Part shown: positions 20,977 to 36,054 of the stretch, one piece after another
How the letters are laid out: each line of letters opens with the position of its first letter
Numbering within the stretch: position 1 is the stretch's first letter
NCBI GenBank assembly: GCA_007131725.1
Contig: SLPZ01000246.1
Coordinates: 1-37,759 of the forward strand
DNA length: 37,759 bases
DNA from: Balneolaceae bacterium
GTDB lineage: Bacteria > Bacteroidota > Rhodothermia > Balneolales > Balneolaceae
Reading direction: 5' to 3'
Translations under genes and position numbers: made by a program
Notes under the pieces: model-generated
The model's input: the letters and a program-made list of their open reading frames with translations, nothing else
Told to the model about the DNA's origin: nothing
The model's database searches: none

Positions 20977-21107
20977 TTTATTCAGTCTGATTTTACATCG
21001 GACAATGAACAGAGGATGATTTTCGTTCTCTTATCAGGAATCAAAACCCGGATGATGAACAGTGACCGGGTTTTCTTTTTTGATGTATTGATTGTTTTAA
21101 ATTACAT

Positions 21108-21206
21108 GGGGCAAGTTCCATACAGCCAGCTCCCTGTGAACTCCGTCAGGGTCGGAAGGCAGCAGCGGTAGCAGGTCGTAGCGGCGTGATGTGGGCAGCT
21201 TGCCCC
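21108..21206 (+). ncRNA. ffs: Signal recognition particle RNA (small bacterial 4.5S type)
   Basis: A 99-base RNA whose ends pair (GGGGCAAG at 21108-21115 with the complement ending at 21206). The conserved apical domain is intact: the symmetric-loop strand TCAGGTC/GGAAGGCAGCAG-type core is seen as CAGGGTCGGAAGGCAGCAGC around 21147-21166, the binding site for the Ffh M domain. A T-run follows directly (21207-21215) as terminator. It forms, with Ffh, the particle that targets nascent membrane proteins. The convergent ypdA-like gene ends inside that T-run. Confidence 0.93.
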
Positions 21207-21215
21207 TCTTTTTTT
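21207..21215 (+). terminator. T-run terminator of the SRP RNA
   Basis: The closing helix of the SRP RNA is followed by TCTTTTTTT and so serves as the terminator stem. The last two bases are shared with the stop codon (complement of 21214-21216) of the convergent reductase gene. Confidence 0.75.
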
Positions 21216-27709: not shown

Positions 27710-27920
27710 AGTATGTTTGATCTAACCGATTTGTGTTCATATTCAGCCATCAAAAAAACCGGATTAGCCGGACGTTTTGTTAAATAGTTTGCAGATGATA
27801 TGATACTCTGTTCATTTTTTACGAAATTACTCTAAATATTGCGTATTAACAACATGATTTGCCAAATTCCGGATACTGTCAGGTCTATTTGATTTGATTT
27901 TTTCCGGCTCAGAAGTACAC

Positions 27921-29870
27921 ATGAAATATTTATTTTGGTTCCGTTCGGTTCTCGTTGCTGCCCTGCTGCTCATTAACGGTTTATCTCATGCCCAAAATGC
28001 TGATACCAGTTCTGTTGAGTGGATTGAAGTTTATTTTAATATGCCTGCTGACCGGTCTGTAGCAAAAGAAGGCAACGACATCAACGACAATGCAGACCTT
28101 TTGCATACACTTCTCGATCTTTTGGATTCGGCAAAGTACAGCATCGATCTCTCTATCTATAACCTTGAGCATCATAAGGTTGGTGAGGCATTGGTGCGTG
28201 CTGCCGAGCGGGGCGTGCGTGTGAGGGTTGTAACCGATCATTACAATCGGTTCAGAAACCGCGAACACGGCGAAAAGATGTGGGGCATGTTGCAGGATGC
28301 TGGAATCTACACGATTGACGATGCCGGAGATGTGTTCAATCCCGACGGATCCATTACATCGCACAGGCTGGTAGGTGCGAGCTACGATATGCACAACAAG
28401 TTTGCCATAATCGATATTTTGAGTGATGACCCGGATGATTATTACGTCTGGACAGGCTCCATGAACCTGACCTATACCGGCCCTTACAATTCAAACAACA
28501 CCATTGTAATTAAAGACAGCGGTATAGCCGAAGCATATTACCGCGAATTTAACCAGATGTGGGGCGGTGATGGTGATGTCCCAAATCCCGAGCGTGCCCG
28601 TTTTCATAAAGACAAGCGCTACATCGGCGAAAAAGTGTTTTATGTAGATACGACAAAAGTGGAGCTCTATTTCGGCCCGATAAACCGCGACCGCTCCAAG
28701 CCATCCATCGGAGAAAGGCTGAACGAACTCATACGCGATGAAGCACAGCACGATGTGAATTTCCTGGCTTTTGCCATCACACACGATATTCCCATGAGCG
28801 AAACCATGTGGGAACGCTCCTTTACCGATGACATTAAAGTTCAGGGTTTGATTGATCCGCGGTTTTATGCGCAGTATCGAAATGCGGGAGTAAAATGGGC
28901 ATCACCAGAGGCAACAATAGGCAACCGAAATATTCGCCAGGCGCGGGAACTCAGAACCCTGCACCACAAGGTGCTTTTGATTGATGTTACCAAACCGTTC
29001 GAAAACGATCGCGGAATTGCCATTGCCGGTTCATACAATTTTTCGCGGAATGCCGAGGAGAACAACGACGAAAACCTGCTCATTTTTCACTGTCAGTACA
29101 TTGCCAATCAGTACTACCAGGATTTTATGGGGGCTATGAACCGGGCAACGGGCGATGCCGAACCGCCGGTGCCTCACATCACCCACGAGCAGTGGTATCC
29201 CGTTTCGAGAGTGCACGATGGCAGCCGTTTCGAAATTGAGCTGGCTTACCGGTTCGGTTACCCGGTTCGGTTTCTTGGTGTGAATGTTCCCCGTATTTAC
29301 GCCGGCCAGGATTCATCGGAATTTTATTCGGCCGAGGCAGCCGAATTTTTATCCAACCTTATTGAGGATAAAGAGATCAGAATGTATGGATACGACATGT
29401 TTACACCCGAGTCGAGATATGGCTCGTTCCGGGCCTATGTACAGGCAAGAGGGGAAGATGGTGAAATCATTGATGTGAACCGGGAGTTATTAGTAAACGG
29501 TTTTGGAGAGTGGGTGCGGTATTACCGGCAGCATCCGGATTCGATTTCAGCATTTCAGGAGTACGCTCAAATAGCAAAGGAGAACGGAGTGGGGATGTGG
29601 AGTGAACCGGACAGTATTGGCAAGCGAATTCCTCGTGTGGAACTTGGCCGTGGTGCTGATGCATTAGCTGTATCCTTTCCGGTCAACATCAATACAGCAG
29701 ATGAAAACACCCTTCAGGCATTAACAGGCATCGGACCTGCTTTTGCAGAAAGAATTGTAGAGTACAGGGCCGAACACGGCGGGTTTTCTGATGTTGAAGA
29801 ACTGATAAACGTCAGCGGAATCGGCCCGGTTACCATGGAACGGCTGCGTCCATACATCACTGTGGAGTAA
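27921..29870 (+). CDS. Secreted PLD-family protein fused to SNase-like and helix-hairpin-helix domains
   Basis: A 649-residue protein with a signal peptide (1-25, ending SHA). Two phospholipase D motifs give a complete HKD active site: HNKFAIID (His158, Lys160, Asp165) with GSMNLT after it, and HHKVLLID (His348, Lys350, Asp355) with GSYNFS. Residues about 427-562 resemble a staphylococcal-nuclease fold (VRFLGVNVPR, then RYGSFRAYV and NGVGMWS), but the usual catalytic residues appear changed. Residues about 587-648 are two ComEA-type helix-hairpin-helix DNA-binding motifs (INTADENTLQALTGIGPAFA and VSGIGPVTMERLRPYI). This suggests an exported nuclease. The ATG at 27921 is chosen over an upstream TTG at 27894 because it starts directly at the signal peptide. 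Confidence 0.85.
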   Translation: MKYLFWFRSVLVAALLLINGLSHAQNADTSSVEWIEVYFNMPADRSVAKEGNDINDNADLLHTLLDLLDSAKYSIDLSIYNLEHHKVGEALVRAAERGVRVRVVTDHYNRFRNREHGEKMWGMLQDAGIYTIDDAGDVFNPDGSITSHRLVGASYDMHNKFAIIDILSDDPDDYYVWTGSMNLTYTGPYNSNNTIVIKDSGIAEAYYREFNQMWGGDGDVPNPERARFHKDKRYIGEKVFYVDTTKVELYFGPINRDRSKPSIGERLNELIRDEAQHDVNFLAFAITHDIPMSETMWERSFTDDIKVQGLIDPRFYAQYRNAGVKWASPEATIGNRNIRQARELRTLHHKVLLIDVTKPFENDRGIAIAGSYNFSRNAEENNDENLLIFHCQYIANQYYQDFMGAMNRATGDAEPPVPHITHEQWYPVSRVHDGSRFEIELAYRFGYPVRFLGVNVPRIYAGQDSSEFYSAEAAEFLSNLIEDKEIRMYGYDMFTPESRYGSFRAYVQARGEDGEIIDVNRELLVNGFGEWVRYYRQHPDSISAFQEYAQIAKENGVGMWSEPDSIGKRIPRVELGRGADALAVSFPVNINTADENTLQALTGIGPAFAERIVEYRAEHGGFSDVEELINVSGIGPVTMERLRPYITVE

Positions 29871-29878
29871 TTATTATT

Positions 29879-29984
29879 ACTTCAAACATCGCACAACACA
29901 CATCGTCTTTCATAAACAATCGTGACAAACCGGGAAGCGATGTGATTCACGAAATTAGATATGCGGTACACGATGTGCGATTTT
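29879..29984. repeat. Direct repeat A flanking the four-helix-bundle pseudogene
   Basis: About 106 bases that recur in the same orientation at 30507-30619. Its left part has CATCGCACA and ACACATCGT (29898-29906), its right part ACGATGTGCG (29970-29979), so each copy can also fold back on itself. It begins 8 bases after the stop codon of the PLD-like gene. Confidence 0.75.
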
Positions 29985-30038
29985 CTTGCATTTCAAATAT
30001 ATGGATTGATTAATGCATTTAGCCTGATTCCGAGAAAA

Positions 30039-30071
30039 TTTTGTAAGGGTTTTGAAAATATTGGTTCATAC
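30039..30071 (+). promoter_or_regulatory. Conserved 33-base leader of the four-helix-bundle pseudogene
   Basis: This leader starts with TTTTGTAAGGG and ends with TTGGTTCATAC. It matches 26 of 33 positions, without gaps, with 34163-34195, which precedes a second remnant of the same gene family. It ends 40 bases before the ATG at 30112. Its role (promoter, binding site or element end) is unknown. Confidence 0.55.
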
Positions 30072-30111
30072 ATGTGAGCAATAAAAATAATTCCAAAATA
30101 ATCAAATCACT

Positions 30112-30471
30112 ATGAACCAATTAGATTTAGAAAATCGCCTGATAGATTTTGCGGTTTTAATCATTAATGTTATTGAAGACATTCCAAATAGTAAGTCAGG
30201 AAACCATTTATAGGGGCAGTTAATCCGATCAGGAACATCACCTGCTCTTAATTATGGAGAAGCAAGAGGAGCCGAGTCACGGAAAGATTTTATTCATAAA
30301 ATTCAGGTGGTTCTTAAAGAGTTGCGTGAAACGTATATTGCCTTAAAAATAATTCACAAGTCAAAAATGTGCGAAAAGAACAAACTCCTTAAGGCAGGAA
30401 TAAAAGAAAGCGATGAACTGATATCAATTTTTGTAAAAAGCACTCAAACAGCAAAGAAAAATATGCCGTAG
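30112..30471 (+). pseudogene. Four-helix-bundle (S23/IVP family) gene with a premature stop
   Basis: An otherwise intact 119-codon frame interrupted by TAG at codon 34 (30211-30213). The protein reads MNQLDLENRLIDFAVLIINV before the stop and QLIRSGTSPALNYGEA, ESRKDFIHKI and LKELRETYIALK after it, ending SDELISIFVKSTQTAKKN. These are the hallmark segments of the small four-helix-bundle family related to proteins encoded in 23S rRNA intervening sequences. Family function is unclear; an Avd-like member assists a retroelement. The rest of the frame is undamaged, so the mutation looks recent. Flanking direct repeats suggest it belonged to a mobile or recombining cassette. Confidence 0.8.
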
Positions 30472-30506
30472 GCAGGATTCATATTAATTTGTGTGCAATT
30501 AAAAAA

Positions 30507-30619
30507 ACTTCAAACATCGCACATCACACAACGCACATCGTCTATTATTAACGATCGTGGCAAACCGGGGAATAGATTGAATCACGATATCAGATGTGCG
30601 GTACACGATGTGCGATTTT
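30507..30619. repeat. Direct repeat B flanking the four-helix-bundle pseudogene
   Basis: The second, slightly longer copy of repeat A (an extra 7 bases in the left part). Internal arms CGCACATCGT (30532-30541) and ACGATGTGCG (30605-30614) are perfectly complementary. It ends a few bases before the terminator of tRNA-Lys. Confidence 0.75.
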
Positions 30620-30626
30620 TATATTT

Positions 30627-30665
30627 AAAAAAATAACCCCTACCGGGTATCAGCCGATAGAGGTT
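30627..30665 (-). terminator. Intrinsic terminator of tRNA-Lys
   Basis: On the minus strand, a 12-pair stem (30665-30654 with 30646-30635, including G-U pairs) and 7-base loop are followed by A then seven T. It lies 43 bases after the tRNA end. The block TCTCTCTTGAT just before it recurs before the orphan terminator at 12981-13016. Confidence 0.8.
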
Positions 30666-30708
30666 AATCAAGAGAGAGTCTTAAAAAATGTTTTTGCTCA
30701 GTCAAATG

Positions 30709-30781
30709 TGAATCGGGAGGGGCTCGAACCCTCGACCCACGGCTTAAAAGGCCGTTGCTCTACCAACTGAGCTACCGATTC
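30709..30781 (-). tRNA. tRNA-Lys (anticodon TTT)
   Basis: A full cloverleaf of 73 bases on the minus strand: acceptor GAATCGG (30781-30775) pairs perfectly with CCGATTC (30716-30710), D arm GCTC/GAGC, anticodon stem ACGGC/GCCGT with loop CTTTTAA, T arm GAGGG/CCCTC with loop TTCGAGC. The anticodon TTT reads lysine codons. The discriminator is A (30709), and CCA is not encoded. Confidence 0.97.
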
Positions 30782-31867: not shown

Positions 31868-32200
31868 ATGCGTTTAAGTGAATTTCAAATTGAACAAATC
31901 CGAAAAATTGCCCGAAGTATATTTGGGGATGATGTCAAAGTAGTGTTGTTCGGGTCAAGGGTTGATGACAAAGCAAGGGGAGGAGATATTGACCTTCTGA
32001 TAGATTCATCACATCAGGATAGAATGAATTTCGAAAATAAAATTGAATTTTTGACCAACTTAAAATTATCCATTGGAGACCAAAAGATTGATGTGATTTA
32101 TAATAAACCTGCGGATGAAATTTCTTTCGGTAAGGGAAGTAAATCGATTACAAAAAATGAAATAATTAATAAAGCTTTTCAGGAAGGAGTAGAACTTTGA
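31868..32200 (+). CDS. MNT-type nucleotidyltransferase (MntA-like antitoxin)
   Basis: A 110-residue minimal nucleotidyltransferase of the pol-beta fold. The motif GSRVDDKARGGDIDLLID has the glycine-serine at 29-30 and metal-binding Asp40 and Asp42. In characterised MntA-HepT pairs the enzyme adds AMP units to a tyrosine of the HEPN partner and so silences it. The HEPN partner gene here overlaps its end by 4 bases (TTGA). The pair is more AT-rich than the flanking aroQ and flippase genes, which hints at separate acquisition. Confidence 0.85.
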   Translation: MRLSEFQIEQIRKIARSIFGDDVKVVLFGSRVDDKARGGDIDLLIDSSHQDRMNFENKIEFLTNLKLSIGDQKIDVIYNKPADEISFGKGSKSITKNEIINKAFQEGVEL

Positions 32201-32679
32201 AAAATTCAGATTATCAAAAATCTACATTGTTACAGACACTTGAAATCTGTGACCTGCATCAGAAGCGGATGAAATTTGCAATAGAACAGTTGCGGGATAT
32301 CTTTCCTCTTGATGAGAAAAGTTACAACGAACTTACCGAACATGACATCTCAATCATTGACCAAATGATTTACAGATTCAGCAAACTTCAGGATACAATG
32401 GGCAGCAGACTTTTTATTCAAACACTTGGAATACTCGAAGAAGATTATTCTGATAAACCGTTTATTGATATTCTGATACGACTTGAAAAGCTGGGTTTAA
32501 TACAAGATTATCAAGAATGGATAAAAATGAGAGAAATTCGTAATCAATTGGCTCATGAATATCCCTCTGAAGTAAAAGAAATAATTGATTCACTGAATCT
32601 TTTATTTTCCAGTACAGAAAAGATCAGCAAAATTTACGCTGATTTGAAATCCTATTTGGATCAGCGATTGCAGAAATAA
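32197..32679 (+). CDS. HEPN-domain ribonuclease-like protein (HepT-like toxin)
   Basis: A 160-residue all-helical protein. The HEPN active-site motif R-x4-H-x-Y is exact: Arg115, His120 and Tyr122 in REIRNQLAHEY, the tyrosine being the residue AMPylated in HepT. The start is TTG at 32197 with a strong Shine-Dalgarno (GGAAGGAG) 7-8 bases upstream and inside the MNT gene, so the two are coupled. HepT toxins cleave RNA. This one is longer than the shortest HepT proteins and shows a distinct N-terminal helical region, so it could also be a substrate-binding partner of the nucleotidyltransferase. Confidence 0.8.
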   Translation: MKNSDYQKSTLLQTLEICDLHQKRMKFAIEQLRDIFPLDEKSYNELTEHDISIIDQMIYRFSKLQDTMGSRLFIQTLGILEEDYSDKPFIDILIRLEKLGLIQDYQEWIKMREIRNQLAHEYPSEVKEIIDSLNLLFSSTEKISKIYADLKSYLDQRLQK

Positions 32680-34162: not shown

Positions 34163-34290
34163 TTTTGTAAGGGATTGAAGTTTTTTGGTTCATACTATTA
34201 GAAATTCCCGATGAATATTTTTCTGAGATCAACCAGATAAACGCTATTTTAACATCAATTGTAAAAACTACTACTGAATCATTAAAATGA
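34163..34290 (+). pseudogene. Deleted remnant of a second four-helix-bundle gene
   Basis: Bases 34163-34195 repeat the leader found before the four-helix-bundle pseudogene at 30039-30071. After a short join, 34201-34290 reads EIPDEYFSEINQINAILTSI followed by VKTTTESLK and a stop, resembling the last helix of that family (compare SDELISIFVKSTQTAKKN). About 80-90 codons in the middle are missing. It appears to be an internally deleted relic. Confidence 0.55.
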
Positions 34291-34347
34291 CGATGGCTGT
34301 AGCTTTATTAATTCAGCATTCATCATTAAACATTGATAATTATAAAC

Positions 34348-36054
34348 ATGATCAAATCCCTCTACATCAAAGATTTTGCACTGATCGATGAACTGGATGT
34401 TCAGTTTGAAGAAGGCCTGAATATACTCACAGGACAGACCGGCGCCGGAAAGTCGATCATTATCGGTGCGCTGAATATGATTCTCGGAGAGCGCGCAGAT
34501 ACGGAAGTGATCCGCCAGGGTGCTGATAAGGCGATATCCGAAGCAACGATTTTGGTGGGGGATAACGGATGGATGAAATCATTTTTGGAAGAGAACGCCG
34601 TGGATTTCAGCCCGGAATTGATTTTGCGAAGGGAAATCCGCCAAACCGGCAGCCGGGCATTTATTAATGATACGCCGGTGAATATTTCGGTTTTGAAGCA
34701 GGTGGGCGATCAGCTTGTGGATCTGCACGGGCAGCACGATCACCAATTGTTGCTGAAGGATGAAAATCATTTGGGTGTGATTGACCGGTTCGATTCGGTT
34801 CAGCCGGTATTGAAGGAATATCAGGCCGAGTTCAGAAAAATGACGGAGCTGCAGAAAGAACTCAAAAACCTGGAAAAAAGTGAACGCGAACTGAAGGAGA
34901 AAACTGAGCTGTATCAATTCCAGGTGAAAGAGCTGGAGGCCGCAGGCCTGAACCCGGATGAGGAGGAACAGCTGGCCGCAGAGATGAATCTGCTTGATAA
35001 CGCCGAAGACCTGGATCAAAAAGCGGCAGCCATCACGGAGATTGGCAATGGAGATGAGATCAGCCTGATGGATATGCTCAACACCATCAAGCTAAACCTT
35101 GAGGATATGGCGCGAATTGAACCGGAATTTGAAACCTACCTGCAGGAAGTTTCAACAGCGCGCATCAGCATCCAGGAAACCATTCAGTTTGCCGAGCGCT
35201 ACCGTGCACGAATTGAATTTAACCCTCAGAGGCTGGAGAAGCTCCGCCAGAGGCAGGCAGAACTTAAACGGCTCCAGAAAAAATATGCACGGACAATACC
35301 CGAGTTAATTCAGTATTATAACCAGATTAAATCCGAATTAAACACGGCCGAAAATTTTGACATTGAGATTGAACGCATCGAAAATGCGATCTCAAATCAG
35401 GCTGAAAACCTGAAAGAAAAAGCCGTTGCACTTCACGAAAAAAGGCTTACAACGGGGCGGCAGCTTTCTGCAGAAATTGTGGAAGCCCTGAAAAATTTGG
35501 GCATCATGAATGGGCAGTTTGTGGTAAGTGTTGAATGGCTCAAATCAGAAAACGGCTGGATTAAAGTAAACGGCCAGCCTATTGACTGCCAGGAGCACGG
35601 ATGCGATGATGTGCGGTTTTTTATTTCAACCAACAAGGGCGAAGAGCCCAAGCCGCTGGCAAAAATTGCATCCGGCGGGGAGATAAGCCGTGTGATGCTG
35701 TCGCTGAAATCGATTCTGGCCAAAGAGCACCATTTGCCGGTGATGATTTTTGATGAAATCGACAACGGCATCAGCGGAAATATTTCTGAGAAAGTGGGGA
35801 GGGAAATGCGAAAATTATCTGAACACTGCCAGATTGTGGCCATCACCCATCAGCCGCAAATTGCCAGCCAGGCCCACAAGCATTACCGTGTTGAAAAAAT
35901 GGAGGATGGCGGCCGCACCATCACAAAAATTGAGCCGCTTTCTGAAGAAGAGCACATCCGCGAAGTGGCCAGCCTGATGAGCGGTGAGGAGATCACGGAA
36001 TCGGCCCTCAGCAGTGCCCGCGAACTGATTGAACGAGGCGGGATGAGGAATTAA
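34348..36054 (+). CDS. recN: DNA repair ATPase RecN
   Basis: A 568-residue SMC-like ATPase that helps repair double-strand breaks. Walker A is GQTGAGKSI (29-37). A long coiled coil covers about 155-380 with a hinge region in the middle. The ABC-type signature is in IASGGEISRVMLSL, and Walker B is VMIFDEIDNGISG with Asp469-Glu470 near 463-475; the H-loop is in AITHQPQIAS. Length is usual for RecN. The ATG at 34348 is preferred over a TTG at 34333, because it gives the family start MIKSLYIKDFALI. No promoter is obvious; the remnant of a four-helix-bundle gene lies just upstream. Confidence 0.95.
   Translation: MIKSLYIKDFALIDELDVQFEEGLNILTGQTGAGKSIIIGALNMILGERADTEVIRQGADKAISEATILVGDNGWMKSFLEENAVDFSPELILRREIRQTGSRAFINDTPVNISVLKQVGDQLVDLHGQHDHQLLLKDENHLGVIDRFDSVQPVLKEYQAEFRKMTELQKELKNLEKSERELKEKTELYQFQVKELEAAGLNPDEEEQLAAEMNLLDNAEDLDQKAAAITEIGNGDEISLMDMLNTIKLNLEDMARIEPEFETYLQEVSTARISIQETIQFAERYRARIEFNPQRLEKLRQRQAELKRLQKKYARTIPELIQYYNQIKSELNTAENFDIEIERIENAISNQAENLKEKAVALHEKRLTTGRQLSAEIVEALKNLGIMNGQFVVSVEWLKSENGWIKVNGQPIDCQEHGCDDVRFFISTNKGEEPKPLAKIASGGEISRVMLSLKSILAKEHHLPVMIFDEIDNGISGNISEKVGREMRKLSEHCQIVAITHQPQIASQAHKHYRVEKMEDGGRTITKIEPLSEEEHIREVASLMSGEEITESALSSARELIERGGMRN

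Follow-up and report, generated by a model that had tools for sequence, protein, structure and literature searches.

A broken S23/IVP-type gene between direct hairpin repeats in a Balneolaceae genome: probably a decayed member of a small non-autonomous mobile-element family

From our analysis of a 37,759-nt stretch of a Balneolaceae MAG (the window, by which we mean the whole stretch at its full length), a broken gene enclosed by direct repeats between a nuclease gene and tRNA-Lys is probably the decayed remnant of a small mobile element that is not autonomous, one of a family built on a heptamer hairpin with a PF05635 gene as the only gene. We draw this from the anatomy of the site, the association of the repeats with the gene, the co-variation of repeat and protein, the states of the sites, the dispersal of the hairpins, selection on the protein and a shared promoter motif. 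In our best reading the window holds a decayed copy, with its gene killed by a stop codon and its repeats diverging. To our knowledge, freestanding S23/IVP four-helix-bundle genes are widespread and functionally uncharacterised. The features of the site, in window coordinates, are as follows.

27894-29870, plus strand: PLD-like, SNase and HhH nuclease gene (Pfam PLDc_2, SNase, HHH_3), left neighbour, outside the element
29879-29984, unstranded: direct repeat copy 1, a hairpin with 7-bp-phased arms at about 29886-29907 and 29958-29984 and a middle region between them
30042-30071, plus strand: leader or promoter-like motif TGTAAG-N15-GGTTCATAC
30112-30471, plus strand: PF05635/TIGR02436 four-helix-bundle (S23/IVP) pseudogene, with TAG codon 34 at 30211-30213
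30507-30619, unstranded: direct repeat copy 2, a hairpin with arms at 30512-30539 and 30593-30620
About 30627-30680, minus strand: terminator-like sequence of tRNA-Lys, conserved in the genus, right edge of the site
30708-30781, minus strand: tRNA-Lys(TTT) (ARAGORN, Rfam), right neighbour

The first-pass annotation of this DNA had placed the unit between the nuclease gene and the tRNA-Lys terminator and had remarked on the lack of a transposase. Pfam, ARAGORN and Rfam agree with the placement, and no transposase gene was found between the nuclease gene and tRNA-Lys; the site likewise carries no Y1 (HUH) gene and no reverse transcriptase. Orthologues of the nuclease gene border the corresponding site in G007, G012, G008, G013, G002 and other genomes. 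Elsewhere in the window, an MNT-type nucleotidyltransferase (PF01909) overlaps a weak match to its substrate-binding partner (PF08780) at 31868-32679, a possible HEPN/MNT toxin-antitoxin pair, and a small SRP RNA lies downstream of tRNA-Ala at 21102-21209 (Rfam RF04183, Bacteroidales_small_SRP, 92.3 bits).

The two direct repeats, judged by eye at first pass to be about four-fifths identical, agree at 85 of 106 positions (80%) in an ungapped comparison of 29879-29984 with 30514-30619, and a gapped alignment puts the start of copy 2 at 30507. The match is not due to chance: the upstream/downstream direct-repeat score is 125, while mismatched locus pairs have a median of 19 and reach 34 at the 99th percentile. 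Each repeat is built of an arm, a middle region and an inverted arm, in line with the complementary arms described earlier. The arms of copy 2 are 79% complementary and the copy folds as RNA with a z of -4.1, beating 200 of 200 shuffles; the decayed copy 1 has such arms too, but its fold reaches a z of only -1.3. The 3' arm of copy 1 is also 74% complementary to the 5' arm of copy 2 over 27 nt, and each copy folds alone. The heptad pattern of the window's own arms is weak but visible: copy 2 contains the heptads CATCGCA CATCACA CAACGCA CATCGTC, and the best self-match over 21 nt at lag 7 is 0.62 in copy 1 and 0.76 in copy 2, as against 0.24-0.38 at lags 6 and 8 (0.24-0.29 in copy 1).

The ORF at 30112-30471 comprises 119 codons and a stop, is interrupted by the single TAG at codon 34 and scores 44.2 bits against PF05635 (cut-off 33.8), which bears out its annotation as a broken S23/IVP gene. 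Relatives in the window's subfamily match both TIGR02436 and PF05635, and the predicted fold of one member (pLDDT 93) matches the S23 structures 2rld and 2gsc as well as the DGR protein Avd (4DWL; RNP 8UB7) in Foldseek. The homology of Avd to PF05635 has been noted before (PMC10053308), and S23 is described as a homopentamer (Lin et al., 2006, as cited in PMC4990558). By analogy with Avd, proteins of the PF05635 family may bind nucleic acid, and they are probably pentameric rings like S23 and Avd. Unlike a DGR, the window site has neither a reverse transcriptase nor template and variable repeats. Pairs of intact PF05635 genes gave dN/dS values of 0.03-0.28, so the protein is under purifying selection, and in-frame stops like that of the window copy were counted by us in 23 of about 150 listed PF05635 genes of the genus. 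A search for PF05635 in phage records returned no match.

We then surveyed the genus, in which PF05635 was present in 27 of the 28 genomes searched. Most of these genomes are draft MAGs, the contigs of which break at repeats (one congener contig is the public record RECI01000115.1). The search yielded 70 loci that we read out, and 69 were scored for repeats: 20 in the window's subfamily (subfamily B, recognised by the motif SPALNYGEAxxAES.KDF.HKM) and 49 others, the boundaries of subfamilies and groups being drawn by eye from sequence motifs. A joint search for repeat and gene in relatives had been proposed at first pass. In this genus, 17 of the 20 subfamily-B genes are enclosed by long direct repeats that are specific to the locus and form a hairpin each; these repeats are mostly 100-250 bp in length and 70-99% identical. 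Direct repeats of comparable score were found at 0 of the 49 other genes. One locus (L068) is a tandem of two units whose repeats are 99% identical. In the window's subfamily the order is thus hairpin, gene, hairpin, and the hairpins therefore read as direct repeats. In the larger subfamily the gene is flanked by inverted repeats instead (arm, gene, inverted arm); across the genus the inverted-repeat score had a matched median of 34 against 19 for mismatched flanks, with 20 of 69 loci above the 99th percentile, and the other five PF05635 genes of the source genome lie in or near inverted repeats, mostly of 7-bp units.

In both subfamilies the arms are imperfect tandem units of 7 bp, sometimes of 8 bp. 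Lag-7 arrays were detected in 35.5% of inner flanks in the genus against 0.8% of outer flanks (650-900 bp away), and the inner flanks showed lag 8 in 5.8% and every other lag in none. Since the outer flanks are largely coding, ordinary intergenic DNA is the fairer control, and there, in 400 kb of a single genome (G023), lag-7 arrays occurred in 1 of 119 gaps. Among pairs of loci in different genomes with unrelated outer flanks, that is, at non-syntenic sites, the share with similar inner flanks rose from 1-2% for distant proteins to 68-80% at a protein similarity of at least 0.7. The similarity of the inner flanks tracks that of the proteins, and the repeats therefore travel, or are maintained, with the gene.

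The association extends well beyond the genus. In 79 subfamily relatives from Bacteroidota, Ignavibacteriota, Neomarinimicrobiota, Planctomycetota, Verrucomicrobiota and other phyla, lag-7 arrays marked 37.9% of inner and 0.7% of outer flanks, and long direct repeats were present at 23 of 68 cross-phylum subfamily-B loci, about two thirds being without them. A fresh test set of 26 plasmid-borne PF05635 genes, on mostly complete records from Cyanobacteriota, Pseudomonadota, Gemmatimonadota, Chloroflexota, Spirochaetota and Bacteroidota, gave lag-7 arrays in 65.4% and lag-8 arrays in 9.6% of inner flanks and 0% in outer flanks, with a matched median inverted-repeat score of 47 against 18. Examples are AAAAGCT repeated six times (L319), GTCGGAA repeated six times with CTTCCGA downstream (L247), and ACAGGTG with CACCTGT (L321). 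Altogether, intact PF05635 relatives with matching 7-base repeats were found in about ten bacterial phyla; this spread, the heptamer link and the inverted-repeat form were all absent from the earlier reading of the sequence. Several plasmid genes lie between or beside cas genes (L249, L256, L319 and L321 with lag-7 heptads, L324 with lag-8), and others (L246, L251, L252, L257), most with heptads, sit amid DISARM-like defence operons, with a large helicase/DUF1156 gene on one side and a methylase or HEPN gene on the other.

We then compared the states of individual sites. A site with one repeat copy and no gene had been predicted for close relatives, and such sites came to light. In G007 the gap between the nuclease gene and tRNA-Lys holds one diverged repeat of the window type and no gene (alignment score 50 against a shuffle maximum of 32); in other congeners this gap is a short spacer with no recognisable repeat copy. 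The L093 element, a sister of the window element, is hairpin-gene-hairpin in G015, a single hairpin with identical junctions in G005, and nothing in G012, and the L073 element is absent from G018. Within the loop of this lone hairpin of G005 (L195, G005:C17:42977-43700) lies an unrelated insertion of about 600 bp, the ends of which (ACTGGCGCAAGTGTTAA...) resemble a further mobile repeat. The fixC-fixX interval is a hotspot of turnover: it carries a PF05635 gene in six genomes, from two clades with their own heptads each, gene-free heptad hairpins in G020 (z 9.9), G001 (z 8.6) and G015 (z 3.2), a lone array in G009 and G014, and nothing in several genomes. The combination of a gene enclosed by direct repeats with single-repeat sites is analogous to solo-LTR formation; unlike LTR elements, these have no reverse transcriptase or integrase and their repeats are hairpins. 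In joining a gene to a hairpin, the elements also resemble integron cassettes in a general way. The site comparisons gave no clear target-site duplication, the sequences being too diverged for a short one to be defined, and the same site states could also stem from gene loss in old elements.

G020 also carries L085-type hairpins without a gene at many other places. Some of the octad hairpins of this genome (solos L226-L240) lie inside longer dispersed repeats that continue with GGTTTTGCC...GCCAGGGATA. The whole window-type hairpin, when sought elsewhere, was not widely dispersed, and only its arms recurred, such as a near-exact 30-nt copy of one copy-2 arm, with no gene, at G000:C275:18589-18618. 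The first-pass annotation had proposed a small mobile cassette and had held that repeats occurring in many places without the gene would speak against it. Such repeats do occur, and the proposal survives in altered form: repeat-gene-repeat units and single-repeat sites recur, as a cassette would have them, but the basic unit seems to be the hairpin, with the gene as an optional part, so the dispersed hairpins modify the idea of a cassette and do not overturn it.

A promoter-like motif is shared by many of these genes. The pattern TGTAAG-N15-GGTTCATAC, with two substitutions allowed, stands upstream of 43 of the 70 genus PF05635 genes, the window gene included. With at most one mismatch it has 22 sites in the source genome, and the reversed pattern has none. 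In that genome it precedes recA (two sites), recN, radC, yifB/comM and a comEA-like gene, and also a putative ECF/anti-sigma gene pair, at least two RAYT-like genes, and GxxExxY and DUF559 genes. The recN gene of the window itself (34333-36054) has this promoter-like motif ahead of it at 34166-34195. From the genes it precedes, the motif is a candidate mark of a DNA-repair and competence regulon of Balneolaceae, and expression together with DNA-repair and DNA-uptake genes would suit an element dependent on host recombination. We rejected the motif as a mark of PF05635 genes in general, for it is confined to the genus (1 of 69 elsewhere). At G000:C299:10854-11892 (L328) the end of an ECF-sigma-like gene is followed by the motif and then by a membrane anti-sigma-like gene; this locus is a candidate regulator of the promoter class, the assignment of the sigma factor being a guess.

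In the mechanism we favour, the PF05635 protein would bind its cognate heptad hairpin as single-stranded DNA or RNA and promote the copying or insertion of the hairpin via the host recombination or competence machinery, with help in trans; both this mobilising step and the movement in trans are what we infer from the comparisons. Recombination between two direct hairpin copies could then leave a lone hairpin or amplify the unit in tandem. We know of no insertion enzyme for heptad-hairpin elements. A reverse transcriptase was ruled out as an obligatory partner, as it is present in just 9 of the 28 genus genomes, and a resident RAYT transposase is dispensable as well. The faint heptads in the window's own arms, the cross-phylum subfamily-B loci with no long direct repeats and the arrays in genomes with no identified cognate gene also speak against the mobile-element reading.

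The strongest competitor to a mobile element, which we nevertheless consider unlikely, is that the heptad stems are RNA-processing signals comparable to those of intervening sequences (IVS), cut by RNase III to free the PF05635 message or insulate it from the transcript of the host, with any mobility incidental; binding of the protein to its own RNA would make repeat and protein co-evolve. The Coxiella 23S IVS is excised by RNase III and has tandem heptamers, GACAGAT, ahead of its S23p ORF (PMC4990558), copy 2 of the window folds well as RNA, and many PF05635 genes lie inside operons (fixC-fixX, cas, DISARM-like). The likeness to the 23S rRNA IVS of Leptospira and Coxiella includes a PF05635/TIGR02436 protein and in Coxiella the heptamers upstream of the ORF, and it may extend to an ORF within a base-paired stem. 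The window element differs in its setting between a protein gene and a tRNA gene (no rRNA was found in the window, so the feature does not lie in a 23S rRNA gene), in its direct repeats, which put a complete hairpin on either side of the gene, and in the gene-free hairpins dispersed through the genome. RNA processing alone leaves the dispersed gene-free hairpins, the orthologous lone hairpins and the locus-specific direct repeats unexplained.

Rather improbable is the view that heptad arrays are independent slippage repeats serving as preferred landing sites, with PF05635 genes put in by something else. Among the intergenic tandem repeats of prokaryotes, heptamers are reported to be the most frequent, and their function to be unexplained (PMC6344855). 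Arrays do occur apart from any gene, and also in genomes in which we identified neither a cognate gene nor a matching gene clade; a strict one-to-one relation of heptad type to gene presence per genome is not supported by the AGTCTTG arrays. The Nostoc STRR and Xanthomonas GGGAATC repeats are alike in being tandem, 7-bp and intergenic, often as inverted pairs, of which Xanthomonas has many (PMC4692102), but they were described without a link to a gene family, whereas the present heptads bracket PF05635 genes. Independent slippage does not account for two flanks that match as inverted or direct copies far above mismatched pairs, for a heptad type that tracks the protein clade at non-syntenic sites, or for the rarity of arrays in ordinary intergenic gaps.

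We regard it as very improbable that resident RAYT/Y1 transposases move the hairpins as REP-like elements and that PF05635 is a passenger on them. Y1_Tnp genes are present in 25 of the 28 genus genomes, RAYT-like genes share the promoter motif as noted above, and the REP/REPIN-RAYT systems resemble the present elements in having a small gene flanked by cognate hairpins and gene-free hairpins dispersed (the L085 type in G020). In contrast to REP-RAYT, the elements here have no HUH nuclease or transposase, a four-helix-bundle protein and 7-bp-phased arms. RAYT is disfavoured as the owner of the repeats since 0 of 40 flanks beside the RAYT transposase genes of this genus carry lag-7 arrays, unlike the flanks of PF05635 genes, and since the two genomes G011 and G006 have no Y1_Tnp gene and yet carry PF05635 genes. 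That a local tandem duplication trapped a pseudogene in the window, with no wider meaning, agrees with locus-specific repeats and a broken gene but is hardly credible, because the comparative data show the same architecture at 16 further subfamily loci of the genus and at many in other phyla.

Beyond the mobile-element reading of the window, we put forward tentatively that PF05635 rings are dedicated non-transposase mobilisers or guardians of bacteria-wide heptamer-hairpin elements, reading a 7-nt register. If true, one pairing would explain freestanding S23/IVP genes, the 23S rRNA IVS and many intergenic heptamer repeats of unexplained function, and the IVP genes in operons for CRISPR or other kinds of defence would be insertions. 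Published lists place IVP genes in cas loci (PMC3936711, PMC10910872) and with immunity genes linked to DGRs (PMC10053308); those given there as CRISPR- or DGR-associated may be insertions with their own repeats. Our literature search, which was made without subscription papers and bioRxiv so that a prior description is possible, returned none that connects heptamers with PF05635 genes of the freestanding kind. In essence, the function of the heptamers and that of the freestanding S23/IVP genes are two questions that may be one, and heptamers bracketing PF05635 genes in about ten phyla make both testable together.
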